A DNA stretch of 64,000 nucleotides from an uncultured Alphaproteobacteria bacterium (GTDB lineage: Bacteria > Pseudomonadota > Alphaproteobacteria > HIMB59), in NCBI GenBank assembly GCA_902575065.1, contig CACGPU010000001.1, forward strand, positions 1 to 64,000. The letters run 5' to 3'. Shown here piece after piece: positions 1,108 to 24,235 of the stretch. The first letter of the stretch is position 1; every line of letters starts with the position of its first letter. The translations under genes and the position numbers were made by a program. The notes under the pieces are model-generated. The model made no database searches, was not told where the DNA came from, and saw only the letters and a program-made list of their open reading frames with translations.

Positions 1108-2028
1108 ATGTCCTATTCTGATATTGAAAATAAATTGAACTCAGGAAAAATTATTATTCTTGATGGTGGGATGGGTGCTGAACTAGAAAAACTCGGAGCC
1201 TCTATGGATAATGATCTTTGGTCTGGCAGATGTTCTGTAGATAATCCTGAAATCGTATACAAAGCCCATCAAAATTTTATTCAATCAGGCTCTGATATTA
1301 TTACTACTAATACTTACGCTAGTACTCCAATTTCAATGAAAGAATATGGTTATGAAAATCATATCGAAGAATGGAATAAAGCGAGTGTAAAAATAGCTAA
1401 AAAAGTTATTGATAATTCAAATTATAATGTATGTGTAGCTGGCTCAGTTTCTACATATGGTAGTTGGGATAGAATTGAACCAAAATTTTTAAAACCAGGT
1501 TTTTTAAAACAATTAAGTATTTTATCTGAAGCAGGTGTTGATTTAATTATCCTTGAAGCAATGACTTCATCAACAAGAACAATTGAGACACTATTAGATT
1601 GTTCAAATGAATTTGATATATCAGTATGGCTTTCAATATCGTGTGCATTGGACAGAGAAAGAGACAAACTTATGCTTGGTTATCAAGAAAGTATAAGTAA
1701 TTCTGAGGCATTCTTTTACGATGATTTTGAAAATTCAATTAATGAATTTAAAAAAATTCATGATGGTCCTATATTAATAGCTCATTCCGATATAAAGGTC
1801 ATAAATCAAGGAATTCAAATAATCAAAAGTAATTATAATGGTGTTATTGGGGCATATCCGAATAACGGTTTTTTTAAAAAACCACATTGGAATGTGGTAG
1901 AGAGTATTTCTCCACAAGAGTATTATGAAGAGGCTAAATTATGGGTTGAAAGTGGAGCACAAATTATAGGTGGTTGCTGTGGAGTTAGCCCTAGTCATAT
2001 TAAAGCATTATCAGTCTTAAAGAATTAA
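1108..2028 (+). CDS. Homocysteine S-methyltransferase family protein (first copy)
   Basis: Zinc-dependent methyltransferase that moves a methyl group from a betaine- or sulfonium-type donor to homocysteine, giving methionine. The 306-residue TIM-barrel protein opens with ILDGGMGAELEKLG, carries a Cys in the SISC strand, and ends with QIIGGCCGVSPSHI. The single Cys plus the Cys pair are the zinc ligands known in BHMT and MmuM. It lies 17 nt after the VOC gene and converges on the enolase-superfamily gene with a 3-nt gap. A second family member lies 1.1 kb away on the opposite strand (3161-4147). The methyl donor is unknown; betaine, S-methylmethionine and DMSP-like sulfoniums are all possible for the family. 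Confidence 0.9.
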   Translation: MSYSDIENKLNSGKIIILDGGMGAELEKLGASMDNDLWSGRCSVDNPEIVYKAHQNFIQSGSDIITTNTYASTPISMKEYGYENHIEEWNKASVKIAKKVIDNSNYNVCVAGSVSTYGSWDRIEPKFLKPGFLKQLSILSEAGVDLIILEAMTSSTRTIETLLDCSNEFDISVWLSISCALDRERDKLMLGYQESISNSEAFFYDDFENSINEFKKIHDGPILIAHSDIKVINQGIQIIKSNYNGVIGAYPNNGFFKKPHWNVVESISPQEYYEEAKLWVESGAQIIGGCCGVSPSHIKALSVLKN

Positions 2029-3160: not shown

Positions 3161-4147
3161 TTAAAATTTTTCAATTAATTTCTTTAAATGATTATCACTT
3201 ACACCACAACATCCACCAATGATTTGTATTTGATCATCAATAAATTCTAGGCAAGAATTTGCAAATTCATCTTCATTACATGTAGCTATAGCTTCATGTG
3301 TACTTGTATCAAATTTATGTATTTCTGGATAAAACATCATAGGGCCATTCCAATGATCTTTTATAACTTTCAAGCCACCATAGCTATCTTGAAACCACGT
3401 GTGCATAATACCATAAACATCTCCACCAATATTTGTTAATTTTTTTATAATATCTTCAAATAAAATTATATCATCTTCAGGTAAAAATTTCGGTTGTTCT
3501 TGATATATCTTTTCATCATAAATTAGTGATTTTTCTTTTTCAGCTCTAAAATTTCTTCCAACTATCGTGTTATCATATTTACTTACACAACAACTTAATC
3601 CAACCCATACAGGTAAACCAGTTTGTAAAGCAGCATTCAATAATAATTGTGAATGGTCTATGTCTAATAACATTTCTAATATTAAAATATCTACACCAGA
3701 ATTTTTTAATGTGTTAGCTGCCTCTATATAATTCTCTTCTTCTTGTTTAAATGACGGAATAAACCTTGGATCAGGTACAAATTCATTTTCCTTTAAAGCA
3801 AAAAAATTGGAGAGACTTCCAGCTATAGCAACCTGATTTTCTTTATTACAGTTTTCTAATGCTTTTCTTGCTAATTCGACAGATCCAGTTAAAAATTCTA
3901 TAGTTTCATTTTCACGATTTAAACTTTGTAAAACGTGTCTACTGGTTGCAAAAGTGTTAGCGGTAATGATATCACATCCAGCATTGATGAAGTTTTCATG
4001 AACTTTTACAACAATATCAGGAGATGTAATTGTTGATAATGCTGCAAAAGCAGGGCTCATATCACCTCCTAATTTAGCAATCTCAGAACCATTTCCACCA
4101 TCGAGGAAAATTTTTGAATTGTTATTTAATTTTTCTTTATAAATCAT
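3161..4147 (-). CDS. Homocysteine S-methyltransferase family protein (second copy)
   Basis: A 328-residue zinc methyltransferase of the same family as the gene at 1108-2028 but clearly diverged from it. It opens with IFLDGGNGSEIAKLGG, has a Cys pair in the GLSCCVSKYD strand, and ends with QIIGGCCGVSDNHLKKL holding the zinc-binding Cys pair. Its start overlaps the stop of the upstream DMT transporter gene (ATGA-type, bases 4144-4147), and the enolase-superfamily gene follows after 3 nt, so transporter, methyltransferase and enolase-like gene form one minus-strand operon. Having two paralogues here suggests different methyl donors or sequential demethylation of one multi-methylated substrate (inference). 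Confidence 0.9.
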   Translation of the reverse strand: MIYKEKLNNNSKIFLDGGNGSEIAKLGGDMSPAFAALSTITSPDIVVKVHENFINAGCDIITANTFATSRHVLQSLNRENETIEFLTGSVELARKALENCNKENQVAIAGSLSNFFALKENEFVPDPRFIPSFKQEEENYIEAANTLKNSGVDILILEMLLDIDHSQLLLNAALQTGLPVWVGLSCCVSKYDNTIVGRNFRAEKEKSLIYDEKIYQEQPKFLPEDDIILFEDIIKKLTNIGGDVYGIMHTWFQDSYGGLKVIKDHWNGPMMFYPEIHKFDTSTHEAIATCNEDEFANSCLEFIDDQIQIIGGCCGVSDNHLKKLIEKF

Positions 4148-5037
4148 GATTTTTTTGTGTTTGGCGCTAGTACTACTGCTAAAATTCCACCAAGCACAAT
4201 CATTGAACTTCCTATTATTTCACGCCAGCCAAAAGGTTCATCTGTCAAAATACTAGAACTTGTCACACCAACAAGTATTTCTGATAAAAAAAGAATAGAA
4301 CACAAACCCGCACCTAATTTGCTAGGAGACCAGAATATTACTACACCTGTGGGTATAAAATAAAAAACAGATATAAAGAAAAGAAATGAAGACATTGCAA
4401 CGAAAGAGTCCATTGTAGGCATAGGTCCTAAATAATCTTTCAAAAAGATACCAGCGACTATGTTAAATAAAGTTCCATAAAAAAAGAAAGAAAAAATTGT
4501 TGGGAATACACCATCTGTCTTTGCGATTTCTAATTTTATCATCCCGCCAGCAAATAATGCCCCTCCAGCAAAAGCTAACCAATCACCAGCATTCTCTGGT
4601 AAAGGGATTATCGTTTGCTTACTAAATACTACCCATAGCCCTCCTAAAGCTAAACCAAGTGTTATAGCTCTTTCTATCCCAGGTCTTTTTTTCAAAAATA
4701 AAATTTCAAAAATAGTAGTCCATATTGGTGTCATGTAAAAAAGTATTAATGCTCGAACTACATCAGTTAAAAGAAAACTCAACGCATAACAAATAAACCC
4801 GCCCCCACAAAGTAAGCCTGTTATCGGTAGCTCTAAACCAAAAGTTCTTCCATTAATTTTACGCCACACTGCAATTGGAGATAAAATTAAAACTCCAATA
4901 ATCATTTGTGCAATGGTTCCCCAACCACCAGTAAGACCACCGTCTTCTAATATTCTTTGTGGTAACCAATATATACCCCATGATCCAGCTGATATAGCAA
5001 GGGCAGCTGCTATTTTATAATGATGAGGATGCCTCAT
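4144..5037 (-). CDS. EamA/DMT-superfamily permease
   Basis: A 297-residue inner-membrane protein with about ten hydrophobic segments arranged as two EamA repeats; the second half ends in ILTDEPFGWREIIGSSMIVLGG, the usual close of the second repeat. The superfamily includes metabolite and amino-acid exporters and some importers; the substrate is unknown. It is translationally coupled to the downstream methyltransferase (4-nt overlap) and lies 5 nt downstream of the amidase stop, so it belongs to the same minus-strand operon. Export or uptake of the methylated substrate or product of these enzymes is a reasonable guess only. Confidence 0.88.
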   Translation of the reverse strand: MRHPHHYKIAAALAISAGSWGIYWLPQRILEDGGLTGGWGTIAQMIIGVLILSPIAVWRKINGRTFGLELPITGLLCGGGFICYALSFLLTDVVRALILFYMTPIWTTIFEILFLKKRPGIERAITLGLALGGLWVVFSKQTIIPLPENAGDWLAFAGGALFAGGMIKLEIAKTDGVFPTIFSFFFYGTLFNIVAGIFLKDYLGPMPTMDSFVAMSSFLFFISVFYFIPTGVVIFWSPSKLGAGLCSILFLSEILVGVTSSSILTDEPFGWREIIGSSMIVLGGILAVVLAPNTKKS

Positions 5038-5042: not shown

Positions 5043-6458
5043 TTAATCTAGCAGAGGTTTAAACTTACTAAAGTTAAATATTTCCTCATATTTTTTTGCA
5101 AAAGCAAATAATTGTAAATCACTTTTTCTTTTTCCAATTATCTGCATACCCATTGGCATACCAAATTCATCAAATCCGACAGGGATAGTGAATGTCGGTA
5201 ATTCAAGAAGACTAGACAATATAAAAATTTCTAACCAACGGTGGTAAGTATCTAACTGAAAAGAATTTATTTTTTCAGGAAACTGTTGATTTTTATCAAA
5301 CGGAAATAGTTGTGCAGAGGGTAACGCTAGAAAATCAAAGTTTTTAAAAATATTTTCAATTTGTTCTTCACACCTTTTTTTTTGTTTATAAGCACTATCT
5401 AAGTCTTCATTTTTTATATTTTTTCCGTGATTGTACTCCCATATAGCTTGGTAAGTCATTGTATTAATATCTTTTATGTTCATTGCTAAAGTATCCTCGT
5501 AAATACTTTTTGATCTAAACGTTATCCAACTATTCCATAGAGCTTCATTATCAAAATCTGGTTTTAATCTTTCAATTTTTACATACAAGTTTTCTAATTT
5601 TTTAAGTTGAGACTCACACATATCTAAAATTTTTGTTTCAATTTTATAATTATTATTCATATTAGATAACCAACCTATTTTGACATTGGTTAAATCTTCA
5701 TCTTTTATTTTTTGATTTTTAAAAAGTTCTTTTAAATCAAAAGAATAGTTATCCCTTGTATCACTTCCAATCATTTCATCTAATAAAAATGCCATATCAC
5801 TTGGTGATTTTGCTAAACAACCAGGTGTTGTGAGTATGGGAATTTTTGATAATTGGTTCCCTCTATCAACTGAAATTAAGCCAGGTGTAGGTCTGTATCC
5901 ATAAATATTTGCATATGCTGCTGGTCCTCTGCATGATCCCATTTGATCAGTGCCGTCTGCAAATGGTATTAGTCCTGCTGCTACAGCAGTACTGGCTCCT
6001 CCACTTGATCCTGCTGCAGATTTTGTATTATCATAATAATTAGAAGTTGGGCCAAACAATCTGTTTATTGTATGTCCACCAACACCTAATTCTGCTGTGT
6101 TAGTCTTTCCAATTATAATAGCTCCGCTTTTAATAAGACGTTCAACAAACAATGAATTTTTTTTGGGAAAATAATCTTTTGTTCCAGGATAGCCATATGT
6201 TGTTTTTATGCCAACTACATCACTTAAATCTTTAATAGCTATGGGGATTCCATCTAAAGTCTTCTCAGATTGAGTTGAATTATCTTTATATACAGCTTCT
6301 TTAATAAGATCCCCTCTATCCTTGAGAAGTACTATTGCATTTAAATCTGGATTAAATTTTTCAATTCTATCCAAATAGTATTCCATTACCTCTTTAATAG
6401 ATATTTGTCGCTGATTTATATTGTGTATTATTTCTTCAACAGATTGATCCTCAAGCAT
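5043..6458 (-). CDS. Amidase signature family hydrolase
   Basis: Serine hydrolase cleaving a carboxamide to acid plus ammonia or amine. The 471-residue protein has the family's triad: Lys76 in PIAIKDLSD, the cis-Ser at about 151 in AAGSSGGAS, and the nucleophile Ser175 in GTDQMGSCRGPA. The last segment is unusual, since most members read GTDxGGSxR; here Met replaces the first Gly, but the nucleophile remains. GatA is unlikely because no gatC or gatB is nearby and the C-terminal part is divergent. It lies between an iron alcohol dehydrogenase (6 nt away) and a DMT permease (5 nt away), so an amide of a small catabolic substrate is likely. Confidence 0.88.
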   Translation of the reverse strand: MLEDQSVEEIIHNINQRQISIKEVMEYYLDRIEKFNPDLNAIVLLKDRGDLIKEAVYKDNSTQSEKTLDGIPIAIKDLSDVVGIKTTYGYPGTKDYFPKKNSLFVERLIKSGAIIIGKTNTAELGVGGHTINRLFGPTSNYYDNTKSAAGSSGGASTAVAAGLIPFADGTDQMGSCRGPAAYANIYGYRPTPGLISVDRGNQLSKIPILTTPGCLAKSPSDMAFLLDEMIGSDTRDNYSFDLKELFKNQKIKDEDLTNVKIGWLSNMNNNYKIETKILDMCESQLKKLENLYVKIERLKPDFDNEALWNSWITFRSKSIYEDTLAMNIKDINTMTYQAIWEYNHGKNIKNEDLDSAYKQKKRCEEQIENIFKNFDFLALPSAQLFPFDKNQQFPEKINSFQLDTYHRWLEIFILSSLLELPTFTIPVGFDEFGMPMGMQIIGKRKSDLQLFAFAKKYEEIFNFSKFKPLLD

Positions 6459-6464: not shown

Positions 6465-7655
6465 TTAGCGAGCTTGTTTTATACTTTGAGTAACAATGTC
6501 TTTCATTTGCAACAATGATGCTTCTTTTGGATTTGTTGCATAGGCTTGATCCTGCATAGCTTTTTTTGCAATCCTTTCAGCACAGTCTTCAGGAACATCA
6601 ATTTCACTTAAACTTTTAGGGATATTTAATCTATCAAGTAACAATTCAATATTTTGAGTAAATTCATTTACTGTATGATTTTCAAATTGCATAGCTTCTG
6701 ACATTCTTTGAACTTTTTCATCCATACCTGGTAAATTGAAATGAAGAACAGGTGGTAAAACAATAGCATTCGTTAAACCATGATGAGTATTAAATTCTGC
6801 TCCAACCATGTGGGATATTGAATGAACATTACCTAATCCCTTTAAAAAGGATATTCCTCCCAAATATGATCCTATGATCATTGCACCTCTTGCCAACAAA
6901 TTATTTGGTTCTTCTACAGCTAAAACAAGAGATTTTGAAATTAAATTAAGACTTTCCAAAGCAGCTCCATCACAAAGTGGATGAAAACCTGGCACACAGT
7001 ATCCCTCGATACTATGTACAAGAGCATCGACACCTGTCCACGCTGTTAATTTTGGAGGTAATTCTAATGTTAACTCAGGATCTACTAGTGTGAATATAGG
7101 TCTTACATCTGGATGCCAGATGCAAAATTTCATTCCTTTTTCTAAATGTGTAACCATTGCTGTTATTTCTGTTTCAGCCCCGGTTCCTGCAGTTGTTGGG
7201 ACAGTTATTATTTTTGGAAATGCATTTTCTTTTGTTATTTTTGGCACTGGTTGTTCAAACTCAAAATCCCATAATGGGGTTTCACTATTAACAGTTAAAC
7301 ATATAGACTTACCACCATCCATAGCACTCCCACCACCAATAGCTATGATTGAGTCGTGACTTCCATTTTTAAACTGGTCACATCCTTTTGATATCTCATC
7401 ATCTCGTGGGTTAGGCGATATATTATAAAATAAATCTGATTTAATATTATTTTTAGATAATAATGCTATTAACTTCTTAATAAAAGGAAGATCCTTGCTG
7501 CCACTATCTGTTACAATAAGAGGATTTTTAATATCAAATTCCTCACAAAATTTTGCAATTTCATTAAATCTTCCTGGTCCGTAATATGTGGTTGTCGGAA
7601 AAGTCCAGTCTTGGTTAGAGAGGATATCTTTTTCGTTTAGTTTAAAGTTTTTCAT
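6465..7655 (-). CDS. Iron-containing (type III) alcohol dehydrogenase
   Basis: NAD(P)-dependent oxidoreductase of 396 residues in the Fe-ADH family. The N-terminal domain has the TTYYGPGRF entry strand and the dinucleotide-binding AIGGGSAMDGGK loop. The C-terminal helical domain carries the metal ligands: Asp and His in TGVDALVHSIEGY, then His residues in the HSISHMVG and NTHHGLTNA segments. It is the first gene of the minus-strand run 7655 to 2032 and is separated by only 41 nt from the divergent DMT permease at 7697. The substrate is probably a short alcohol or hydroxy-acid; paired with the amidase and the aldehyde dehydrogenase it fits stepwise oxidation of a small alcohol, but this is inference. 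Confidence 0.9.
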   Translation of the reverse strand: MKNFKLNEKDILSNQDWTFPTTTYYGPGRFNEIAKFCEEFDIKNPLIVTDSGSKDLPFIKKLIALLSKNNIKSDLFYNISPNPRDDEISKGCDQFKNGSHDSIIAIGGGSAMDGGKSICLTVNSETPLWDFEFEQPVPKITKENAFPKIITVPTTAGTGAETEITAMVTHLEKGMKFCIWHPDVRPIFTLVDPELTLELPPKLTAWTGVDALVHSIEGYCVPGFHPLCDGAALESLNLISKSLVLAVEEPNNLLARGAMIIGSYLGGISFLKGLGNVHSISHMVGAEFNTHHGLTNAIVLPPVLHFNLPGMDEKVQRMSEAMQFENHTVNEFTQNIELLLDRLNIPKSLSEIDVPEDCAERIAKKAMQDQAYATNPKEASLLQMKDIVTQSIKQAR

Positions 7656-8617: not shown

Positions 8618-9652
8618 TCATTTAGATTTCATAGACTTCATAACAATGGTTCGATCAATTTCTCCAACTAGCTCTCCAGATTTGGAATTTATTATAGGGT
8701 AGGCCGTATCATCTTCACAAATCTGGTCAATTAATGTTTCAATTTTAGCATTTTCATCTATGCATTTTGTTTTATCTGAAAATAATTTTTTTGACTCATC
8801 AGAACATTCTTTACGCATAACTTTTCCTGCGCTTAATACTTTATATTTTGGAACATCTTCACAAAAATCTTTAACGTATTTATCAACTGGATTTGCCACA
8901 ATTTCTTCAGGTGTTCCAACTTGAGAAATCTCTCCATCTTTCATAATAGCAATATGATCTCCCATTTTTATTGCCTCTAAAAAATCATGAGTAATAAAAA
9001 CCATAGTTCGTTGTAATTTTTTTTGAATGTCTAAGAGTTCATCTTGCATTTCTCTTCTAATCAATGGGTCTAAAGCAGAAAATGGCTCATCAAATATTAA
9101 GATTTCTGGCTCAACTGCCATCGCACGTGCTAAACCAACTCTTTGTTGCATTCCACCTGATAGCTCTCTTGGATAATTATTATGCCAACCTTTTAAACCA
9201 ACTAGATTTAAAGACTCTGTAGCCTTGTCTAATCTTTCTTGTTTTTTTTCTCCTCTAATTTCTAAACCATAAGAAATATTTTCAAGAACTGTCCGATGTG
9301 GAAAAAGTCCAAAGTGTTGAAATACCATACTCATTTTATTTCTTCTAAGATCAAGAAGGCTATTTCTACTAATTTTTGTAATGTCAATATCATCAATAAT
9401 TACCGATCCAGATGTAGGTTCAATTAATCTAGTTAAACATCTAACTAAAGTTGATTTTCCACTACCTGATAATCCCATTACAACAAATGTTTCACCTTTT
9501 TGAATGGAAAAGCTGACATCTTTGACAGCTATTACATGTCCGGTTTTTTCTTGTACTTCGTCTCTACTTAAATTTGGATCTAAATTGTCTAAAATTCTTT
9601 TTTCATCATTACCAAAAATTTTCCATATATTTGAGCAAATAATTTTATCCAT
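8618..9652 (-). CDS. Betaine/proline-type ABC transporter ATPase (ProV/OpuAA-like)
   Basis: ATP-hydrolysing subunit of a quaternary-amine importer. The 344-residue protein has Walker A GLSGSGKST (about residue 59), the signature LSGGMQQRVG, Walker B LIFDEPFSAL and the H-loop FITHD. The N-terminal extension with DEVQEKTGHVIAVKDVSF is characteristic of ProV/OpuAA and not of generic ATPases. The C-terminal tail (about 265-344) is a shortened CBS-like region, a module that in OpuA senses ionic strength. Unlike usual proVWX operons, this gene is transcribed away from its permease (97 nt between starts), so the two halves are probably driven from a shared divergent promoter region. Confidence 0.92.
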   Translation of the reverse strand: MDKIICSNIWKIFGNDEKRILDNLDPNLSRDEVQEKTGHVIAVKDVSFSIQKGETFVVMGLSGSGKSTLVRCLTRLIEPTSGSVIIDDIDITKISRNSLLDLRRNKMSMVFQHFGLFPHRTVLENISYGLEIRGEKKQERLDKATESLNLVGLKGWHNNYPRELSGGMQQRVGLARAMAVEPEILIFDEPFSALDPLIRREMQDELLDIQKKLQRTMVFITHDFLEAIKMGDHIAIMKDGEISQVGTPEEIVANPVDKYVKDFCEDVPKYKVLSAGKVMRKECSDESKKLFSDKTKCIDENAKIETLIDQICEDDTAYPIINSKSGELVGEIDRTIVMKSMKSK

Positions 9653-9749
9653 ATTATCCTGGTTAAAGGCTATTATAATTGTGAATTAATACTATTAAAA
9701 TAAAATTATTTTTATAAATTCTTATATAGTTGAATAAATATAATTAAAT

Positions 9750-11873
9750 ATGTCTTTAAATCAAAATATAGCTACTAAAAATAAATTAAATAAAAATATA
9801 ATTTTTTACTTAAGTATTTTTATCATTGGGGCAGTAGCTTATTATCTATCGATTATTAATGAGGACCCTACTGTATTTCCTAAATCTATTACTGATGAAT
9901 TTAAATTTACCGCATGGATAAATGCTGGAGAAGATTATTTAAAAGATAACTATAGATGGATAACGAGATTATTTGCCTCTTTTTTACAAGCTGGTTACAT
10001 GGCATTGGAAAATTTCTTTGTTGAGTCTCCGTGGATTTTAATAATGTCTTTAATGGCTCTTCCAGCTTTAGCATATGGTGGTATTAAACTTGCTCTATTT
10101 TGTATGTTTACAGTTTATTTCTGGGGTGCAGTTGATATGTGGGAAGTCTCTATGCAAACATTAGCATTAATGGGCTTATCAGTAATTTTATCTGTAATTT
10201 TTGGAGTTATCCTAGGGATACTCAGTTCTCAAAGTGATAGATTTGAAAATTTTTTAAAACCTATCTTGGACACCATGCAAGTCATGCCTGCCTTTGTATA
10301 TTTATTCCCTGCTATGTTCTTTTTTGGAATTGGCGGTGCTCCAGCAATACTTGCTACACTAATTTATGCTATGCCTCCAATTATTAGGTTAACAAATTTA
10401 GGGATAAGACAAGTATCTAAAGAAACAATAGAGTCAGCTGAGTCTTTTGGATCTAATAAATTTCAACTTTTATTTAAAATTAAAATACCGATGGCCTTAC
10501 CAAGTATCATGATGGGTGTTAATCAAACAATTATGATGGCTTTAGCTTTAGTTGTTCTTGCAACTTTTATTGGTGCCGAAGGTTTAGGTGGTCAAGTATG
10601 GCAAGCAATTAGAAAATTAGATGTTGGTTGGGCGATGGAAGGGGGCTTGTGTATTTTATTTATGGCAATAATGTTTGATAGAATAAGTAGTGCTATTAGT
10701 AAAGAAAAAGAAACCTTACCTGATGATGTAAAAAAATTTTACTTATTACCGCAAAATTTACACAGAAACCCTTTAGCAAACTTGATTGAATTACCTTTGA
10801 GAATATCTGTAAAGCTCACAAATATATTTTTTACAACTATTGTTAATGTTTTTGCTAGTTTAATTGCTAGCTTTATTTCTTTTTTTAATAAGTCTCAAAA
10901 AGGTTCAGTTAAAAATTTTATAAACCAACGATATTTTTTATTTTCATCATTTTTAATTTTTATCTTTATTTATATTTTTGATGCATACATTTATAGTATA
11001 GGAACTTTTCCAGAAACTTGGGCAATTGATATTCAAAAACCAATAGAAGATACTGTCAAGGCAATGACTCTTGATCCTGGTTTTATATCATTTGCAAAAG
11101 GCATGAAGTATTTTGTTTACTTATATTTGCTAAACCCATTAAATTTATTTCTAACTCAGATACCTTGGTGGTATACAATGATTGTTTTTATCCTTATAGG
11201 ATATGTGACAGTTGGAATAAAGTTTGCCACCATCACCGCAATATTATTAGCCTTTATTGGAGCTACAGGTATGTGGGTGCATTCAATGATTACGCTATCT
11301 TCAGTATTAGTTTCAGTTTTAATTTGTTTTGTAATAGGAGTACCACTTGGAGTAATAGCATCCTACAATAAATGGTACAGAGATATCCAAAATGTTGTTT
11401 TAGATGCAATGCAAACTTTGCCTTATTTTTGTTATTTAATTCCTGTTTTAATGTTTTTTGGAGGAAATATAGTATCTGCAGTTATTGCAACAGTTATATA
11501 TTCTGTACCACCAATAATAAGATTAACAGCTCTTGGGTTGTCACAAGTTTCAGGGAGCTATTCAGAGGTATCTAAATCTTTTGGAGGAACAGGAATTCAA
11601 ACTTTAAATAAAGTAAAATTTCCACTAGCTGTTCCCAGTCTCGTCATGGGCTTTAATCAAACTGTAATAATGGCTTTTGCAATGCAAATTGTTACACCAT
11701 TGATTGGAGGAAAAGGTCTAGGACTTCAAGTATTTAATGCACTTCAAAGATCAGATACAGGAAGAGGTCTATCAGCTGGTTTAGCTATCGTTCTTCTAGC
11801 TATTATCATCGATAGGATAACCCACGCCTGGACTAAGAAACAAAGACAAGCCCTTGGATTAGATAAATCGTAA
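9750..11873 (+). CDS. Betaine-type ABC transporter, fused double permease (ProW-ProW)
   Basis: A 707-residue inner-membrane protein that contains two complete ProW/OpuAB-type permease domains in tandem. Domain 1 (about 80-315) carries ESAESFGSNKFQLLFKIKIPMALP and domain 2 (about 470-700) the matching SEVSKSFGGTGIQTLNKVKFPLAVP; both are the EAA-like loops that contact the ATPase. The two halves are similar but not identical, so one polypeptide supplies both sides of the pore. It is divergent from the ATPase gene and its stop overlaps the start of the molybdoenzyme gene (TAATG at 11871), which ties transport to that enzyme by translational coupling. Confidence 0.92.
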   Translation: MSLNQNIATKNKLNKNIIFYLSIFIIGAVAYYLSIINEDPTVFPKSITDEFKFTAWINAGEDYLKDNYRWITRLFASFLQAGYMALENFFVESPWILIMSLMALPALAYGGIKLALFCMFTVYFWGAVDMWEVSMQTLALMGLSVILSVIFGVILGILSSQSDRFENFLKPILDTMQVMPAFVYLFPAMFFFGIGGAPAILATLIYAMPPIIRLTNLGIRQVSKETIESAESFGSNKFQLLFKIKIPMALPSIMMGVNQTIMMALALVVLATFIGAEGLGGQVWQAIRKLDVGWAMEGGLCILFMAIMFDRISSAISKEKETLPDDVKKFYLLPQNLHRNPLANLIELPLRISVKLTNIFFTTIVNVFASLIASFISFFNKSQKGSVKNFINQRYFLFSSFLIFIFIYIFDAYIYSIGTFPETWAIDIQKPIEDTVKAMTLDPGFISFAKGMKYFVYLYLLNPLNLFLTQIPWWYTMIVFILIGYVTVGIKFATITAILLAFIGATGMWVHSMITLSSVLVSVLICFVIGVPLGVIASYNKWYRDIQNVVLDAMQTLPYFCYLIPVLMFFGGNIVSAVIATVIYSVPPIIRLTALGLSQVSGSYSEVSKSFGGTGIQTLNKVKFPLAVPSLVMGFNQTVIMAFAMQIVTPLIGGKGLGLQVFNALQRSDTGRGLSAGLAIVLLAIIIDRITHAWTKKQRQALGLDKS

Positions 11874-14218
11874 TGGGTTTTAAGAAAGATCTTCCCTTAA
11901 CTAGTTCGCATTGGGGAACTTATAGAGCAAAAGTAAATAATGGGAAAGTCACAGAATTAATTGGATGGGAAAATGATAAAGATCCATCACCAATAGGACC
12001 AGGTATTCTAGACATTCACGATAATCAAACGCGAATTGATAAGCCTATGATAAGAAAAAGTTGGATCGATAATGGACCAGGAACAAACAATAACTTAAGA
12101 GGAATAGATCCTTTTGTAGCTGTATCTTGGGATGAAGCTGAAAATATAGTGGCCAAAGAATTAAATAGAGTAAGAGAAAACTTCGGTAATTCTTCAATAT
12201 TTGGTGGATCTTATGGCTGGGCTAGTGCTGGAAGATTTCACCACGCTCAAAGCCAATTACATCGTTTTTTAAATTGCATTGGTGGCTACACAAGATCAAA
12301 GTTTACTTATAGTTTTGCAGCAGCAGAAGCAATGGTCCCCCATATACTTGGAAGTTATAGAGCCTATCTTGATACCTGCACTAGTTGGGACTCAATCGAA
12401 GAAAACACAGAACTATTTGTATGTTTTGGAGGAGTTCCTTTAAAAAATGGTCAAATAGCTCAAGGTGGAACCGGGAGTCATAATCAAAAAGAAAAACTAA
12501 TTAGTTCTGCTAAAGCTGGCATAAAATTTGTAAATTTAAGTCCACTGAAAAGTGACTTATTAGACGAAGTTAAAGGAAAATGGTTACCCTTAAGACCTAA
12601 TACTGATGTTGCAATTATGCTCGGCCTAGCACACACTCTATACAAAGAAAATTTATATAGTGAAATATTTATTGAAAAATACACAGAAGGATTTGATATT
12701 TTCTTACCATATCTTTTAGGAGATTTAGATGGAGTTGTAAAAGATGCTAATTGGGCTTCAGAAATAAGTGAAATCTCATCAGAAGAAATAATATCTCTAG
12801 CAAGGGACATGTACACAAAGCGAACTATGATATCTGTTAGTTGGTCTTTAACTCGCCAAGACCATGGTGAACAGCCTTTTTGGGCAGCAATTATGCTTGC
12901 GTCAATGTTGGGTCAAATAGGTTTACCAGGTGGTGGTTTTGGATTTGGTTACAGTGCAACTAATCACATTGGTGGGCAGTTTTCTATTATTCCTGGTGCT
13001 GCTTTTCCGCAATCTGACAATAAAATTGATAATTTCATCCCAGTTGCAAGGATAAGTGATTTACTTTTAAATCCAGGTAAAACTTTTCATTTTGATGGTA
13101 AGGAGTATGAATATCCTGATATTAAATTAATTTATTGGGCAGGTGGAAACCCATTTCATCATCATCAGGATATTAATAAACTTTTGCTAGCTTGGCAAAA
13201 ACCTGAAACCATTATTTCTAATGAATGGTGCTGGAATACTTTAGCTAAATATTCAGATATTATCTTACCTTGTACCACCCCACTTGAAAGACAAGACATA
13301 ATGCTTACCCCAAGAGATCCTTATGTAATTTCAATGTCAAAATTAGTTGAGCCTTTTGAAGAGGCTAAAAGTGATTTTGATATTTTTAAAGGAATTGCAA
13401 AAAAAATGGATATCGAAAATCTTTTTACTGAAGGAAGAGATGAAGAAGATTGGCAAAAATGGATTTATCAAGAAACTTCAGTCAAATCAAAGACATTAAA
13501 AAATATTGATTTTCCTAGCTATCAGGAGTTTAGAAAAATTGGGTGGTTTAAAGTTCCACCACCAAAAGAAAATACAATAATGTTAAAAGATTTTAGAGAA
13601 GATCCTATTAAATTCCCACTCTCCACTCCAAGTGGAAAAATAGAAATATATTCCAAAACAGTAGATAGTTTTAATTATGATGATTGTCCTGGTCATCCAA
13701 CCTGGTTAGAGCCCTGTGAATGGCTTGGAAATAAAAATAAAAACTATCCTTTACATTTAATATCTAATCAACCAAAAAATAAATTACATAGTCAAATGGA
13801 TCACGGAGGTTATAGTAAATCTTTTAAAATTAAAGATCGTGAACCAATTGAAATGAATAGTGTTGATGCGAGCAGTCGTGGAATAAATGAGGGAGATATA
13901 GTAAAACTTTTTAATGATAGAGGTGCCTGTTTAGCTGGTGTAAACATTAATGATAATATTCGCCCTGGAGTTGTTCAAATTAGTACTGGTGCATGGTACG
14001 ATCCTGAGGATACTAAAAAATTAAAAACTATTTGTAAACATGGCAATCCTAATGTCCTTACAAAAGACAAAGGAACTTCAAAATTAGGTCAAGGTCCTAT
14101 AGCACACTCATGTCTTATCGAAGTAGAATTAGTTAAAGATAATATTTCTCCTGTGACTGCATTTGACCCTCCTGTTATTATTCGTGATTATAAATCTAAT
14201 AGAGTCATTGATAAATAA
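11873..14218 (+). CDS. Molybdopterin S-/N-oxide reductase (DMSO reductase/biotin sulfoxide reductase family)
   Basis: A 781-residue molybdenum enzyme with bis-MGD cofactor, most like BisC and DorA/TorA. It starts SHWGTYRAKVNNG without any twin-arginine signal, so it should be cytoplasmic like BisC. The segment GGSYGWASAGRFHH holds Tyr114 and Trp116, and FTYSFAAAE holds Ser147; by my count these match the active-site Tyr, Trp and Mo-ligand Ser of Rhodobacter DMSO reductase. From knowledge of the family, the Tyr is absent from TMAO reductases, so an S-oxide substrate is favoured. No Cys cluster for an FeS centre is seen at the N-terminus. It overlaps the permease by 1 nt and abuts the GcvT-like gene exactly, so its substrate is probably what the transporter imports. 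Confidence 0.9.
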   Translation: MGFKKDLPLTSSHWGTYRAKVNNGKVTELIGWENDKDPSPIGPGILDIHDNQTRIDKPMIRKSWIDNGPGTNNNLRGIDPFVAVSWDEAENIVAKELNRVRENFGNSSIFGGSYGWASAGRFHHAQSQLHRFLNCIGGYTRSKFTYSFAAAEAMVPHILGSYRAYLDTCTSWDSIEENTELFVCFGGVPLKNGQIAQGGTGSHNQKEKLISSAKAGIKFVNLSPLKSDLLDEVKGKWLPLRPNTDVAIMLGLAHTLYKENLYSEIFIEKYTEGFDIFLPYLLGDLDGVVKDANWASEISEISSEEIISLARDMYTKRTMISVSWSLTRQDHGEQPFWAAIMLASMLGQIGLPGGGFGFGYSATNHIGGQFSIIPGAAFPQSDNKIDNFIPVARISDLLLNPGKTFHFDGKEYEYPDIKLIYWAGGNPFHHHQDINKLLLAWQKPETIISNEWCWNTLAKYSDIILPCTTPLERQDIMLTPRDPYVISMSKLVEPFEEAKSDFDIFKGIAKKMDIENLFTEGRDEEDWQKWIYQETSVKSKTLKNIDFPSYQEFRKIGWFKVPPPKENTIMLKDFREDPIKFPLSTPSGKIEIYSKTVDSFNYDDCPGHPTWLEPCEWLGNKNKNYPLHLISNQPKNKLHSQMDHGGYSKSFKIKDREPIEMNSVDASSRGINEGDIVKLFNDRGACLAGVNINDNIRPGVVQISTGAWYDPEDTKKLKTICKHGNPNVLTKDKGTSKLGQGPIAHSCLIEVELVKDNISPVTAFDPPVIIRDYKSNRVIDK

Positions 14219-15415
14219 ATGGGAAATTTACAAGAAGAAGCTGATCTAAACAAAACAATTAAAATTAGTGCGCGTAGATTTGAAGAGTCTCCATTCATTC
14301 AGCGTACTAATACTTCGAATATGGTCAGAGGTGTCTATGCAGGAAGATACTTTCCTATGAAAATTGATGAAGATCCTTTAGAAAAATATTGGCTTTTAAG
14401 ACAAAAAGCTCTTTTATTTGATGTCCCAGAAAAACCGATAGAAATATCAGGAAAAGACTCAGTTTCTTTTTTGAATAAAGTGCTGACAAGAGATATTTCA
14501 AAAACAAAAATTGGCAGAGGTTATTATGCACTCGCCTGTACGCCAAAAGGTGGAATTTTCATGGATGGAGTTTTATTTAGATTTGATGAAGAAAAGTTTT
14601 GGTACGTTCAAGCAGACGGCCCATTTGAAGATTGGCTTATTGCTCATAGTTCAAATTATGATATTCAAATAAAAGACCCTAAATCCAGAGTTCTTCAAAT
14701 TCAAGGTCCGGCATCAATCGATATTATGAAGTTAGCTTCTAATGGAAAGATTGATGAAAATATGCCTTATTTTACATCCAATTTTTTTGATCTAGGAGGG
14801 CAAAATTTATATGTTTCAAGAACAGGTTTTACAAATGAATTAGGATTTGAAATTTTTTGTGATGGTTTTAACACAGACCATTTGGCTCTATGGGACTATC
14901 TTATTGAATGTGGTAAACCATATGGTATGCAATTTTCTGCCTCTAGAGCCATGACTATTAGAAGAATTGAGGGTGGTATTTTTGGAAATTTAACTGATAT
15001 AGATACAACAATTACTCCTTTCGAAGCAGGCCTAGGGTATTTTGTGAATATGGATAAAGATTTTATCGGTAAAGATGCATTAATTAAAAAAGATAAAAGG
15101 ACTTGTTTATTTGGAATAACATGTAAAACAGCAGTTCCTAAAGCCGGAAGTAAAATAAACATTAATGATAAAGAAGTCGGCTACATAACAGCAGGTGTAC
15201 CATCTCCAACACTCGAACAAGGAATTGGTTATGTAAGATTTTATAAACCAAATGATTATATAAATAAAGAGATAAAAATAATTCTCCCAGATAATTCTTC
15301 ACACACCGGAGTCGTTGTAGATTTACCCTTTTATGATAAAGAAAAAAAAATTGTAAAGGGGATAGATAGATCTATTCCCATTAAACCTGATAGTTATTCT
15401 TTTGATGCAAAATAA
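14219..15415 (+). CDS. GcvT-fold aminomethyltransferase / folate-dependent demethylase family protein
   Basis: A 398-residue protein of the glycine-cleavage T-protein family, which transfers a one-carbon unit from an amine or sulfonium to tetrahydrofolate. Visible family features are DVPEKPIEISGKDSVSFLNKVLTRDI, CTPKGGIFMDGVLF, the YVSRTGFTNELGFEIF motif (T-protein: TGYTGExGFE), and the C-terminal barrel ending in IGYVRF. Relatives include GcvT, DmdA and the folate domains of sarcosine and dimethylglycine dehydrogenases. It does not start like SAR11 DmdA, and no gcvH or gcvP is nearby, so a dedicated demethylase of an imported compound is favoured over glycine cleavage. It directly abuts the molybdoenzyme and overlaps the SDR gene. 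Confidence 0.88.
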   Translation: MGNLQEEADLNKTIKISARRFEESPFIQRTNTSNMVRGVYAGRYFPMKIDEDPLEKYWLLRQKALLFDVPEKPIEISGKDSVSFLNKVLTRDISKTKIGRGYYALACTPKGGIFMDGVLFRFDEEKFWYVQADGPFEDWLIAHSSNYDIQIKDPKSRVLQIQGPASIDIMKLASNGKIDENMPYFTSNFFDLGGQNLYVSRTGFTNELGFEIFCDGFNTDHLALWDYLIECGKPYGMQFSASRAMTIRRIEGGIFGNLTDIDTTITPFEAGLGYFVNMDKDFIGKDALIKKDKRTCLFGITCKTAVPKAGSKININDKEVGYITAGVPSPTLEQGIGYVRFYKPNDYINKEIKIILPDNSSHTGVVVDLPFYDKEKKIVKGIDRSIPIKPDSYSFDAK

Positions 15416-16193
15416 TTTTCTTAAAAATAAAAAAATTATTTTATCTGCTGGTGCTTCTGGGATAGGTTTAGCTATTGTAAAATTATTACTATTACAAGGT
15501 GCTTTTGTTTATACTTGTGATATTGATAAAAAAAATATTAATAAACTGAAAAAAAATTCATACTTTAATAAAAAACTTTTTATATCAGAATGCGATGCTT
15601 CAAAAGAAGATGAGGTAAAAAAATTTTATAAAGAAATATCAAATAAAACCAAAAAAATAGATGGACTTATAAATAATATTGGAATAGCTGGACCCACATC
15701 TCCTTTAGAGAAAATTAAATCTGATGATTGGGAAAAGACTTTACATGTAAATGTTAATAGTCATTTTTATTTTACTAAATATGCAATACCCATGATTAAG
15801 AAATCTAAAAATGGCTCAATCATCAATATTTCCTCTACAGCTGGTATTGATGGTTTTCCTAATAGGTCACCTTATGCGGCAAGCAAATGGGCCTTAGTTG
15901 GTATTACTAAAACTTTAGCAATGGAATTAGGTAAATTTAATATACGAGTAAATGCAATATGCCCGGGTTCTGTTAAAGGTGCGAGAATGATGAGGGTCAT
16001 AAAAGCGAAAGCAAAAATGTTAAAGCAATCTGTAAGATCAATTGAAAAAGATTTTGTTTCTATGAGTTCTTTAAAACAATGGGTTTATGAAGATGATATA
16101 GCAAAAATATGTTCCTTTTTAATTTCTCAAGACTCCCTTAGAGTCTCAGGTCAAGTAATTTCTATTGATGGAAATACTGAGAGAATGGATTAA
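15405..16193 (+). CDS. Short-chain dehydrogenase/reductase (SDR)
   Basis: Classical SDR of about 262 residues. Cofactor loop SAGASGIGLA (TGxxxGIG variant), NNIG in place of NNAG, catalytic Ser in INISSTAG, and Tyr-Lys in SPYAASKWA are all present. The ATG at 15405 is preferred over the TTG three bases upstream; it overlaps the stop of the GcvT-like gene by 11 nt. It converges on the DUF849 gene, the two stops overlapping by 4 nt (16190-16193). The family oxidises alcohols to ketones; with the neighbouring beta-keto acid cleavage enzyme it would fit conversion of a 3-hydroxy acid to a 3-keto acid that is then cleaved, a carnitine-like logic (inference). Confidence 0.9.
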   Translation: MQNNFLKNKKIILSAGASGIGLAIVKLLLLQGAFVYTCDIDKKNINKLKKNSYFNKKLFISECDASKEDEVKKFYKEISNKTKKIDGLINNIGIAGPTSPLEKIKSDDWEKTLHVNVNSHFYFTKYAIPMIKKSKNGSIINISSTAGIDGFPNRSPYAASKWALVGITKTLAMELGKFNIRVNAICPGSVKGARMMRVIKAKAKMLKQSVRSIEKDFVSMSSLKQWVYEDDIAKICSFLISQDSLRVSGQVISIDGNTERMD

Positions 16194-17077
16194 GTTTTTA
16201 TTAGCTTTAAATAATCTCTAGTCTCTTGGGGACTCATAATAGAGGAGCCCAACTCATGAACTATTTTTATTGCCTTTTCAACTAATTGTGGATTAGTTGC
16301 AAGTTTTCCCTTTGATAAATATAAATTATCTTCAAGCCCAACTCTGGGATTACCTCCAAGTAAAACTGTTTGTGCAACAAAGGGCATTTCATTTCTTGAA
16401 ATTGCAAAGCCTGACCAAATAGCATTTTTAGGCATGACATCTAACATTGCAATCATAGCTGTAGTTTTTGCTGGAGCTCCCCAGGGAATTCCTAAACACA
16501 TTTGATATAAGGGTGGGTCACTAAGTAGTCCTTCTTCATAAAGTTGAGCACCAAACCACATGTTACCTAAATCAAATGCTTCAACTTCAGGTTTAACCCC
16601 AATTTCTTTTAATCGTTTTGCTGCTTTTCTTAAATCATTTGGAGTATTGACTGCCAACACAGAACTATCACCAAAATTTAATGTACCAGCATCAAGTGTA
16701 CAAATTTCCGGAAGTAATTCCTCTACATGAGATATTCTTTCCATAATATTAGCCATATCTGTATATGGACCAAAATCCATTGGGTTATCTCCTTCACCTA
16801 TATCTAAATCACCTCCCATACCGGTTGTTAAATTAATAATTACATCAGTGTCACTAGATCTAATTATTTCAACTACTTCCTTATAAAATTCAAATTTTCG
16901 ACTAGGCGTTCCATCTTCCTCTCTGACATGAATATGAACTATAGATGCACCTGCTTGAGCAGACTCTATTGCGGATTTAGCTATTTGTTTTGGAGTCTTT
17001 GGAAGATCTGGATGTTTTGATGCAGTGTCACCGGATCCATTAACAGCACATGTAAGAAATACTTTAGTTTTCATCAT
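16190..17077 (-). CDS. Beta-keto acid cleavage enzyme (BKACE, DUF849)
   Basis: A 295-residue TIM-barrel zinc enzyme that condenses a beta-keto acid with acetyl-CoA and splits it into acetoacetate and a new CoA ester. Family marks are the start KVFLTCAVNGSG, the zinc-binding HIHVREEDGTPSR with its two His, the INLTTGMGGD strand, and CTLDAGTLNFGDS. Known members act on 3-keto-5-aminohexanoate or dehydrocarnitine; specificity is not readable by eye. It is the only gene on its strand here, reading towards the SDR, with 133 nt of divergent spacer before the binding-protein gene. Alternative starts at 17077 and 17074 are equivalent. Confidence 0.9.
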   Translation of the reverse strand: MMKTKVFLTCAVNGSGDTASKHPDLPKTPKQIAKSAIESAQAGASIVHIHVREEDGTPSRKFEFYKEVVEIIRSSDTDVIINLTTGMGGDLDIGEGDNPMDFGPYTDMANIMERISHVEELLPEICTLDAGTLNFGDSSVLAVNTPNDLRKAAKRLKEIGVKPEVEAFDLGNMWFGAQLYEEGLLSDPPLYQMCLGIPWGAPAKTTAMIAMLDVMPKNAIWSGFAISRNEMPFVAQTVLLGGNPRVGLEDNLYLSKGKLATNPQLVEKAIKIVHELGSSIMSPQETRDYLKLIKT

Positions 17078-17164
17078 TTTTAATAGTATTACACTTAATT
17101 AATTAATAAAAAACATATTTTATAGGATTTTGTTACCTATTAATGAATAAATAACATATGTACT

Positions 17165-17203
17165 TTGACTATTTTTTGCTAATATAAATACTTTATGGGA
17201 GGG
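17165..17203 (+). promoter_or_regulatory. Candidate promoter and strong Shine-Dalgarno of the betaine-type binding protein gene
   Basis: TTGACT at 17165-17170 followed 16 nt later by AATACT (17187-17192) resembles a sigma70-type promoter. A strong GGGAGGG at 17197-17203 sits 8 nt before the ATG at 17211. Most genes in the window lack a recognisable Shine-Dalgarno, so this fits high translation of a periplasmic binding protein. The -10 is imperfect and would leave a very short leader, so the promoter part is tentative. Confidence 0.4.
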
Positions 17204-17210
17204 ATACTCT

Positions 17211-18212
17211 ATGAGAATATCTAAAACAATTATAACTTTTATTCTATCCTCTATTCTTTTTACCGCAACATTCAGTAAAGCTAATGCTGAAAAATTATTA
17301 GCAGCAATCGCTGACTGGACTGGTGGAGAGATTTCATGTCAAGTAGCTGTAAGCATACTTGAGGATGAGTTAGGATACGAAATTGATAGAATCGTATTTG
17401 CTTCAGGAACTGGCTTGTGGGAAGCCATTGCTGCAGGCGATATTGATTTTGCATGTGAGTCATGGCCTAGTTATGCTGAAGCTGATGACGTTATGTTAAG
17501 TGGCGACCTTATCCATGGTGGAGAAGTTAAAATGACTTACTCTGGTGATGGAAGTGTAAAATTACTTGGAACTGTTGGTATTACTGGTATGTCAGATTAT
17601 TATGTTCCAAAATATTGGGCTGATGCAAACCCAGATTTTTCTAGTTATGCTGATTTAAATAAATTTAAAGAAGATTTTGCTACTATGGAGTCTGGTGGAA
17701 AAGGTCGATTAATTGGTTGTCCAGTTGCTGGTTGGAACTGTCATGATCAAAAAAGATTAGATTTACTTGGTTTAGACTTTGTTGCTGATGAATTGGGAAC
17801 CGAAACTGCTGCTCTTGCTGAAGCGCAAGGTATGTACGACAGAGGCGAGCCTTTCTTAATGTACCTTTGGGAGCCTCATTGGTTCTTTGGTGTTAACGAA
17901 TTAGTAGGTGTTAAATTAGCTCCAAACAAAACATGTGATACCTTTACAGAGGCTAACAACTGGGAAACTTGTGGCGCTGACTATTGGCCAGCTACTGGTT
18001 GGGCTGTTGATTATCCAATGAACTACGGTAATCCTGATACATTTGCTAAACCAGAAAACCAAAAAGCACTTGAGTTCTTTGGTAAAATGGCTTTATCAAA
18101 TGCAGATCAAGCAGCTATGCTCGTTAAAGTTCGTGAAGGTGGAGAGCTTAATGATGTTGTTGCTGAATGGAAAGCAAACAATAAATCTACTTGGGAGAAG
18201 TGGTTACCATAA
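17211..18212 (+). CDS. Betaine-type ABC transporter substrate-binding protein (ProX/OpuAC-like)
   Basis: Periplasmic binding protein of 333 residues. Residues 1-26 form a Sec signal peptide with cleavage likely after SKANA. The mature part begins LLAAIADWTGGEISCQVAVSILEDELGYEI, has GTGLWEAIAAGDIDFACESW and a Trp-rich segment near YLWEPHWFF; such aromatic residues form the cage that binds quaternary ammonium or sulfonium groups in ProX/OpuAC. It has its own strong ribosome site and lies 5.3 kb downstream of the fused permease, with the enzymes between. It is probably the binding partner of the ATPase at 8618 and the permease at 9750, since no other betaine-type components are visible. Confidence 0.92.
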   Translation: MRISKTIITFILSSILFTATFSKANAEKLLAAIADWTGGEISCQVAVSILEDELGYEIDRIVFASGTGLWEAIAAGDIDFACESWPSYAEADDVMLSGDLIHGGEVKMTYSGDGSVKLLGTVGITGMSDYYVPKYWADANPDFSSYADLNKFKEDFATMESGGKGRLIGCPVAGWNCHDQKRLDLLGLDFVADELGTETAALAEAQGMYDRGEPFLMYLWEPHWFFGVNELVGVKLAPNKTCDTFTEANNWETCGADYWPATGWAVDYPMNYGNPDTFAKPENQKALEFFGKMALSNADQAAMLVKVREGGELNDVVAEWKANNKSTWEKWLP

Positions 18213-24184: not shown

Positions 24185-24198
24185 TTTATATTATTTTA

Positions 24199-24229: not shown

Positions 24230-24235
24230 AATTTA

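Follow-up and report, generated by a model that had tools for sequence, protein, structure and literature searches.

In a contig of an uncultured alphaproteobacterium of the HIMB59 lineage (NCBI GenBank assembly GCA_902575065.1, contig CACGPU010000001.1, positions 1 to 64,000; this 64,000-nucleotide stretch is called the window below), we found that the genes for a fused transporter permease, a molybdoenzyme and a GcvT-fold protein, which we name GcvT1, form a conserved unit that recurs in Pelagibacterales and, in part, in Rhodobacterales. We propose that the surrounding cluster is catabolic and serves a methylated onium zwitterion, the most likely substrate being a dimethylsulfonium compound other than dimethylsulfoniopropionate (DMSP), together with its S-oxide; we put the probability of this reading at about 0.5. 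The wider class, a methylated onium zwitterion whose oxide is reduced in the cytoplasm, is in our judgement probable.

A sequence-only reading of the window had named seven genes, from the ATPase to the binding protein, as one pathway. All seven are open frames at the places it gave, and profile scans of the window agree with its families. Outside that set we found an iron-containing alcohol dehydrogenase (FeADH), which belongs to the core of the cluster, and an aldehyde dehydrogenase (ALDH), which probably does; relatives hold a CitE-like lyase, a GMC enzyme resembling choline dehydrogenase, a BetI-like repressor, a second GcvT protein (GcvT2) and, in three loci, an SBP56 protein. The genes of the window concerned are:

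2..709, + strand: ALDH, probable cluster member; the frame is open through base 2 and is clipped by the start of the window and contig
6465..7655, − strand: FeADH, core member by its recurrence in middle-distance and distant loci
8618..9652, − strand: ATP-binding subunit, ProV type (TIGR01186, 368.2 bits, over the cut-off of 326.6)
9750..11873, + strand: fused permease, 707 amino acids (two PF00528, BPD_transp_1, stretches; TIGR03416, 427.1 bits, over its cut-off)
11873..14218, + strand: molybdoenzyme, cytoplasmic S/N-oxide reductase, S-oxide type by residues (TIGR00509; structure match 1eu1)
14219..15415, + strand: GcvT1, probable folate-dependent methyltransferase (demethylase) (PF01571 and PF08669)
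15405..16193, + strand: short-chain dehydrogenase/reductase (SDR), not core; starts at ATG 15405 or TTG 15402 and overlaps GcvT1
16190..17077, − strand: beta-keto acid cleavage enzyme (BKACE), probably cleaving 3-dehydrocarnitine, not core (PF05853, 299.5 bits)
17211..18212, + strand: ProX-like periplasmic binding protein, TmoX-like, with a four-Trp cage (PF04069, 119.7 bits)

The permease, molybdoenzyme, GcvT1 and SDR genes overlap or abut, as had been reported: the permease stop and the molybdoenzyme start have one base in common (TAATG, 11871-11875), the molybdoenzyme ends at 14218 against the GcvT1 start at 14219, and the ATG of the SDR sits 11 bases within GcvT1. Relative to this chain the ATPase gene is divergent and the BKACE gene convergent, so the seven genes are not one transcript. 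The source genome (1.25 Mb in 27 contigs, 85% complete) has a single match to the molybdoenzyme protein, and the genome collection lists its near relatives under the titles uncultured Alphaproteobacteria or Pelagibacteraceae.

We compared gene order by tblastn and clustering of open reading frames (ORFs) in the best 80 of 295 loci confirmed from the genome collection, counting a gene as present if the stretch holds a protein at least 50% identical to the window protein or a member of the named ORF cluster. By identity of the molybdoenzyme the loci are near (at least 84%, n = 30), middle (70-84%, n = 25) or distant (below 70%, n = 25); the distant ones are mostly from Rhodobacteraceae, with bins titled Halieaceae, Gammaproteobacteria and Flavobacteriales. 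GcvT1 is present in 29 near loci (the sole exception is a 3.5-kb contig), in all 25 middle loci and in 18 distant loci; one of the seven distant loci without it stops about 200 bases past the molybdoenzyme. FeADH is present in 23 near, 20 middle and 10 distant loci. The near and middle loci that lack it start too close to the molybdoenzyme to reveal it, so that all 20 middle loci whose sequence extends that far have it; the 10 distant loci are among the 18 with GcvT1. These 18 also include 11 with the permease and 9 with the ATPase, a gene that adjoins the molybdoenzyme in Pelagibacterales loci. The ALDH is 57-58% identical to the ALDH of seven roseobacter-type loci and occurs in 2 of the 25 middle loci, most of which have flanks too short to reach it. 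The SDR and BKACE genes follow another pattern: each is present in 28 near loci, in 8 (SDR) and 5 (BKACE) middle loci, and in none of the 25 distant loci. What had been claimed for gene order thus stands for permease, molybdoenzyme and GcvT, which is kept, and fails for SDR and BKACE; the ATPase and ProX-like genes are near but rearranged between the two lineages, and are not in every distant locus.

Genome-level counts agree. In the genus of the window the molybdoenzyme and GcvT1 (at least 75% identity) are present in the identical 33 of 52 genomes and both missing from the other 19; the near loci overlap with these genomes, so the two samples are not independent. We also took the best candidates per genome (molybdoenzyme E ≤ 1e-200, GcvT E ≤ 1e-95) from 394 genomes belonging to the same family as strain SB2, a cultured Rhodobacteraceae bacterium with a roseobacter-type locus. 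With identity cut-offs set after viewing the lists, the molybdoenzyme (at least 63%) is present in 9 genomes, GcvT1 (at least 62%) in 13 and both in 8 (Fisher p ~ 9e-13), and in all 8 the two genes are 2-59 bases apart. Among the other five GcvT1 genomes, one (G283) opens with a molybdoenzyme fragment at the contig edge (L121), another (G092) has GcvT1 near a contig start, and three (G073, G223, G437) have GcvT1 without an adjoining molybdoenzyme and molybdoenzyme homologs of 44-61% identity elsewhere in the genome. Locus L115 keeps permease, GcvT1, FeADH and ALDH with no molybdoenzyme within its 8.3 kb, and L113 has transporter and GcvT1, interrupted by other ORFs, with no molybdoenzyme in the stretch. 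Both fit the pattern expected if the molybdoenzyme is an optional entry step.

The molybdoenzyme scores 943.8 bits against TIGR00509 (bisC_fam) over residues 12-769, below the cut-off of 1017.55, and its best solved chain is the DMSO reductase 1eu1, so that it appears to be a divergent member or a relative of the BisC family. Tyr114, Trp116 and Ser147 (DorA numbering; we take Ser147 to be the molybdenum ligand) are invariant in 81 of 81 aligned rows, all gathered with the window protein as query. Aligned S-oxide reductases keep Tyr114 and Trp116 and E. coli TorA is without Tyr114, according to parts of PMC5122715, in line with the earlier remark that this Tyr is kept here and absent from trimethylamine N-oxide (TMAO) reductases. 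By these residues the active site would be of the S-oxide type. No twin-arginine leader was seen by eye in the protein (MGFKKDLPLTSSHWGTYR...), and moaA is present in the genome over its cut-off, which makes a cytoplasmic, active molybdoenzyme plausible. Plasmid searches gave no matches above 60% identity. Below that level, a region of the Phaeobacter inhibens mobilizable plasmid pP66_d (L111:5218-19797) holds a distant GcvT (36%) and molybdoenzyme (59%) together with genes for a TRAP transporter, an AMP-binding CoA ligase, a crotonase, an SDR and an ALDH, and is perhaps a parallel solution for a related compound.

GcvT1 forms a clade of its own (support 99/98) that spans Pelagibacterales and Rhodobacterales, in a tree with several long branches; GcvT2 and the GcvT protein encoded beside the TMAO demethylase gene tdm lie near it, and DmdA lies far off. 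Its scores fall below every family cut-off: 158.4 bits for DmdA (NF009133, cut-off 410), 165.5 and 131.6 bits for T-protein (NF001567 and TIGR00528, cut-offs 300 and 235.85) and 187.2 bits for Tdm (NF053776, cut-off 1100), and it has GcvT domains only, with no DUF1989. The first Asp of the T-protein DD motif is catalytic. At this motif T-protein (1woo) and Tdm have Asp-Asp, DmdA has Asn-Asp, GcvT1 has Met-Asp, and GcvT2 has Met at the first position. Counting positions, we take W197 of 3tfh to be the DmdA residue W171. Passages of PMC7487153 describe W171, a contact of DMSP, as key for this substrate. At this position the GcvT1-clade rows shown have Phe; DmdA and GcvT2 have Trp. Judged by the tested residues and cut-offs, GcvT1 is neither a T-protein nor a DmdA, and its most economical reading would be transfer of a methyl group from an onium centre to folate. 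A true DmdA is encoded elsewhere in the window's genome (482.8-482.9 bits, over the cut-off), and contig C1 of that genome has Tdm (1159.6 bits, with DUF1989) and Tmm (737.4 bits), both over their cut-offs. A predicted GcvT1 structure (mean pLDDT 61.1) was not used.

GcvT genes are also found in other settings. On C1, beside tdm and a fused permease gene, lies a standalone GcvT-like gene (L128:6182-7351, genome G000) with Ile at the T-protein Asp position. CobW and TauD genes lie near GcvT1 in L114 (6018-8722), and a more distant GcvT (53%) in L116 (7221-13690) lies near a TorT-like periplasmic protein (219 bits, over the cut-off of 200) and sugar-type ABC permeases.

The window permease resembles a 690-amino-acid permease that its genome encodes next to the TMAO demethylase, both having two PF00528 stretches. 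The binding protein matches TmoX (4xz6, 77.8 bits) and 7yle (32.8 bits), which we take from its name and residues to be DmpX. Its residues W36, W85, W175, Y218 and W220 are invariant in 10 aligned rows. Compared with TmoX the Trp cage is kept, Glu131, which binds the oxide oxygen, is replaced by Ser128, and Phe220 by Tyr218, so that the full set of TmoX ligand residues is not kept. Compared with DmpX, four Trp and Tyr200 align, Glu113 is Ser, and the position of Thr64 is unsure. Roseobacter-type binding proteins keep the Glu and have Met at the TmoX Phe220 position. The Tyr218-x-Trp220 motif aligns with Tyr200-x-Trp202 of DmpX, and we considered it as proof of a sulfonium ligand; this was dropped because E. 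coli ProX and a carnitine-type protein of SAR11 show the motif as well, so it does not settle sulfur versus nitrogen. A predicted structure of the binding protein (mean pLDDT 61.5) was also set aside.

In strain SB2 (L104/L122) the gene order is GcvT2 – VOC – GMC – mandelate racemase type – EamA – BetI – ProX – ATPase – permease – molybdoenzyme – GcvT1 – FeADH – a 184-amino-acid protein – ALDH – CitE-like lyase. The 184-amino-acid protein has no matches in Pfam or NCBIfam. Other loci have additional genes for SBP56, a 2Fe-2S ferredoxin, a CoA-binding-like protein, another SDR and a glutathione S-transferase. Among the 18 distant GcvT1 loci, the lyase is found in 10, ALDH in 7, BetI in 7, GMC in 5, GcvT2 in 3 and SBP56 in 3, and the CitE/RipC-like lyase cluster is also represented in 12 of 25 middle loci. 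BetI (144.4 bits, cut-off 118) and the choline-dehydrogenase subfamily match of the GMC enzyme (723.2 bits, cut-off 605) are over their cut-offs, the ALDH is below that of betaine aldehyde dehydrogenase (BADH; 417 bits, cut-off 668.6), and Pfam membership of SBP56 is certain (690 bits). Of the 10 distant loci that have a lyase, three (L090, L093 and L096, the last from the cultured roseobacter Marivita cryptomonadis CL-SK44) carry SBP56 beside it. GcvT2 genes, a second GcvT clade in roseobacter-type clusters, lie at L098:479, L105:14882, L119:17024, L122:2110 and L102:13973. The DmdA-type Trp in GcvT2, missing from GcvT1, suggests two different demethylation steps.

Taken together, these genes suggest the following route. 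The TmoX-like ABC importer would bring the zwitterion into the cell, and GcvT1 would pass a methyl group from its onium centre to tetrahydrofolate by DmdA-like chemistry. The molybdoenzyme would strip off the oxygen inside the cytoplasm, either ahead of demethylation or following it, allowing an S-oxidised form to join the same route. FeADH and ALDH would oxidise a hydroxyl tail to the acid, and in relatives the CitE-like lyase may finish the carbon. The four-Trp cage of the binding protein supports an onium ligand. Sulfur is the best fit for a substrate that has an oxidisable heteroatom, methyl groups that can be removed and an alcohol tail, because quaternary nitrogen cannot carry an oxide and DMSP can be oxidised; its oxidation to dimethylsulfoxonium propionate (DMSOP) is described in parts of PMC10686828. 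The SBP56 genes beside the lyase also support sulfur. BetI, the choline-dehydrogenase subfamily and the BADH-like ALDH of the roseobacter-type loci support a choline-like skeleton, and such choline-type genes suggest an alcohol-to-acid step and thus sulfur analogs of choline and betaine. According to sections of PMC7221440, dimethylsulfonioacetate is present in 11 of 16 phytoplankton species, is cited as unrecognised by DmdA, and yields methanethiol in Ruegeria pomeroyi by a demethylation route that was unidentified. An exact assignment, with sulfocholine going to dimethylsulfonioacetate on a choline-like skeleton, together with its S-oxide, is doubtful. We advance only tentatively the full proposal of an undescribed aerobic SAR11/roseobacter pathway that takes a dimethylsulfonium osmolyte, not DMSP itself but one of the dimethylsulfonioacetate/sulfocholine type, in its reduced as well as its oxidised (sulfoxonium/sulfoxide) form and couples a cytoplasmic molybdenum S-oxide reductase to a new clade of folate-dependent demethylases.

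Several observations weigh against the dimethylsulfonium reading. SBP56 falls far below the MtoX cut-off (159 bits, cut-off 650), its match in L106/L120 is weak and broken-looking, and it was not found in the window's genome (85% complete); members of the BetI, GMC and SBP56 clusters are confined to distant loci. The genomes of L113, L114 and L115 carry molybdoenzyme homologs (44-61%) elsewhere, so a missing molybdoenzyme may mean one acting in trans. Five distant GcvT1 loci that are not cut right at the molybdoenzyme show no permease (L086, L097, L103, L106, L109), and six distant loci have the molybdoenzyme without GcvT1 (L084, L091, L092, L094, L101, L107), two of them (L091 and L107) with FeADH near it. 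GcvT1 carries Phe in place of the DMSP-specific Trp, and its nearest paralog in its own genome (47%) adjoins the TMAO demethylase. In L114 the GcvT1 gene stands next to one for a Rieske enzyme resembling glycine betaine monooxygenase (148.9 bits for the GbcA family, cut-off 670), with an MTTB gene close by and no molybdoenzyme in the stretch. The binding proteins of the two lineages are 28% identical and their pockets differ. Finally, R. pomeroyi has four OpuAC binding proteins (parts of PMC10030565), so the cluster may be missing there and the methanethiol observation may not concern it.

A serious rival is a quaternary-amine pathway for choline, betaine or carnitine-type substrates, which we regard as possible at odds clearly below even. 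GcvT1 would then be a folate-dependent betaine demethylase, FeADH and ALDH would act on choline-like alcohols, and the molybdoenzyme would reduce an N-oxide or hydroxylamine or repair oxidised metabolites, with the adjoining carnitine genes as part of the same theme. The TmoX-like binding protein, the GcvT paralog beside tdm, the Rieske and MTTB genes of L114, the TorT-like gene of L116 and the BetI and choline-dehydrogenase-like genes all agree with it, as do the overlap of SDR with GcvT1 and the tracking of the molybdoenzyme by BKACE in the window's genus, and carnitine-type genes in the same genome. However, the quaternary nitrogen of choline, betaine and carnitine cannot bear an oxide, which leaves an S/N-oxide reductase without an evident task on any of them; the active-site residues are those of S-oxide reductases; and TMAO is already served in this genome by its own demethylase (1159.6 bits) and permease. 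We know of no tetrahydrofolate-dependent betaine demethylase of this kind.

Two sulfur-based alternatives would also account for the molybdoenzyme. DMSOP could be imported, reduced by it to DMSP and demethylated by GcvT1. Parts of PMC10686828 call DMSOP abundant and its demethylation by DmdA a future priority, the reductase is of the S-oxide type, and Tyr218-x-Trp220 aligns with DmpX, but that motif is not diagnostic. A second DMSP demethylase would be redundant beside the true DmdA (482.8 bits), GcvT1 is without the DMSP-specific Trp, no part of a DmdBCD set was recognised within the window interval, and the alcohol and aldehyde dehydrogenases, BetI and lyase are left unexplained; this pathway is unlikely. 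The molybdoenzyme could instead be a general cytoplasmic repair enzyme for biotin or methionine sulfoxide that stands in a methyl-compound operon by chance. It is of the BisC family, Haemophilus influenzae MtsZ reduces free methionine sulfoxide and biotin sulfoxide (parts of PMC5122715), and six distant loci have it without GcvT1. Against this stand its distance of 2-59 bases from GcvT1 in 8 of 9 genomes, its overlap with the permease gene in the window, and its joint presence and absence with GcvT1 (33 and 19 of 52 genus genomes); we regard the repair reading as quite improbable.

The SDR and BKACE genes had been thought to finish the pathway. A single pathway that includes them was rejected as a conserved unit by the locus counts: they are mostly missing outside the window's lineage. 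The remainder of that claim is supported: transporter, molybdoenzyme and GcvT form a conserved unit, and it is sound to infer a methylated zwitterion whose heteroatom can be oxidised. To judge from sequence, SDR and BKACE look like part of a carnitine module joined to this operon in one lineage, a reading based on the carnitine-type genes that accompany them and on an Arctic SAR11 precedent. All 8 middle loci with the SDR hold a carnitine-type gene, namely a member of the carnitine-dehydrogenase cluster (7) or a GBBH/TauD dioxygenase (1, L069), and 5 of the 8 have BKACE. Carnitine dehydrogenase is found in no near locus; the middle loci have the carnitine-dehydrogenase cluster in 7 and a gamma-butyrobetaine-dioxygenase (BBOX) cluster in 2. 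One member of the carnitine-dehydrogenase cluster scores 346.5 bits in an NCBIfam scan (below the cut-off of 414) and two more carry 3HCDH domains. Contig C11 of the window's genome has a carnitine-dehydrogenase-like gene (354.7 bits, also below) next to a BBOX-like gene (318.6 bits, below the cut-off of 414.75). Parts of PMC12421898 describe an Arctic SAR11 island with BBOX, carnitine dehydrogenase, BKACE, and choline and aldehyde dehydrogenases.

Some counts weigh against a carnitine module. In the genus, 33 of 34 BKACE genomes have the molybdoenzyme, 24 of 29 genomes with a carnitine-dehydrogenase-like gene have BKACE and 5 do not, and the SDR start overlaps GcvT1; the SDR may still have a role in this operon. 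BKACE is in the same 33 genomes as the molybdoenzyme and GcvT1, plus one contig-edge copy. Since the whole block comes and goes as one within the genus, co-occurrence at that level cannot set SDR and BKACE apart from the core. We also considered gonyol as substrate, with the SDR giving a beta-keto acid and BKACE a DMSP thioester. This chemically neat option was dropped because outside this lineage SDR and BKACE accompany carnitine-type genes.

The remaining genes between ALDH and FeADH are:

710..1090, + strand: VOC/glyoxalase-fold protein (PF00903), resembling by eye the VOC protein of cluster c39 (4 loci)
1108..2028, + strand: homocysteine S-methyltransferase 1 (PF02574; NF007020, 136.6 bits, below the cut-off of 215)
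2300-3157: mandelate-racemase-type gene, 285 amino acids
3161..4147, − strand: homocysteine S-methyltransferase 2 (PF02574), in 29 of 80 loci
4144..5037, − strand: EamA transporter (PF00892), in 37 loci
5043..6458, − strand: amidase (PF01425), in 41 of 80 loci

The homocysteine S-methyltransferase pair (1108-2028 and 3161-4147) flanks the cluster, and the first is a possible second methyl acceptor; in SAR11 these two enzymes may take the place of GcvT2. The mandelate-racemase-type gene, with 285 amino acids against 376 in L060, appears truncated or shifted. A more distant EamA relative is present in some roseobacter-type clusters. Further along, a sugar-type ABC transporter cluster (22877-27832) has similar-looking neighboring inner-membrane permeases at 25114 and 25932, by eye perhaps a tandem duplication. 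Rfam gave no matches (for example, to a SAM riboswitch) at E ≤ 1 over window positions 1-26000.

Much of the turnover of methylated sulfur and nitrogen in the ocean is due to Pelagibacterales and marine Rhodobacteraceae. Both are among the carriers of this cluster, and at issue is how zwitterions other than DMSP, TMAO and glycine betaine are used. The annotations 'glycine betaine transporter', 'aminomethyltransferase' and 'DMSO reductase' in SAR11 may mask a separate pathway, and a defined set of transporter, S-oxide-type reductase and GcvT-fold enzyme makes such questions testable. If true, the dimethylsulfonium reading would add a new route by which such zwitterions reach methanethiol or sulfur assimilation. 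The parts of PMC10686828 concerned leave DMSOP demethylation open, and the term 'reductase' does not occur in its main text.

All the component families are already known, and their combination would be a variant of onium-osmolyte catabolism. Searches aimed at this gene set or a substrate, in openly licensed PubMed Central papers without preprints, listed no paper that describes the set by its title and abstract start, and a survey of Pelagibacteraceae molybdoenzymes (PMC12636525) does not, in the parts concerned, name a BisC/DorA-type enzyme as such. The SAR11 carnitine island shares BKACE and, with relatives of the window, a carnitine-dehydrogenase-like gene, and ALDH, lactoylglutathione lyase and a DMT transporter are named in the parts of PMC12421898 concerned. 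It differs in that its section 7 names no molybdoenzyme or GcvT and in that the window's genome has its carnitine-dehydrogenase-like and BBOX-like genes on another contig. BisC, DorA and MtsZ share the TIGR00509 family and Tyr114, Trp116 and Ser147 with the molybdoenzyme, which differs in its score under the family cut-off and its operon with an importer and a GcvT-fold enzyme. DMSP demethylation by DmdA with the DmpXWV importer likewise joins a ProX-type ABC importer with an aromatic cage to a GcvT-fold enzyme, whereas here GcvT1 has 158 bits against the DmdA cut-off of 410 and Phe for Trp, a molybdoenzyme and an alcohol dehydrogenase are present, and DmdA is elsewhere. The TMAO pathway (Tmo transporter, Tdm, Tmm and the neighboring GcvT, L128) has a fused permease, a binding protein that ours resembles and the GcvT paralog of 47% identity, but this cluster is without a Tdm/DUF1989 protein, has Ser for TmoX Glu131 and has a molybdoenzyme. 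Finally, the bet choline operons share with the roseobacter-type loci a BetI-like repressor, a choline-dehydrogenase-like GMC enzyme and a BADH-like ALDH, to which the roseobacter-type loci add the molybdoenzyme, one or two GcvT enzymes, a CitE-like lyase and sometimes SBP56.

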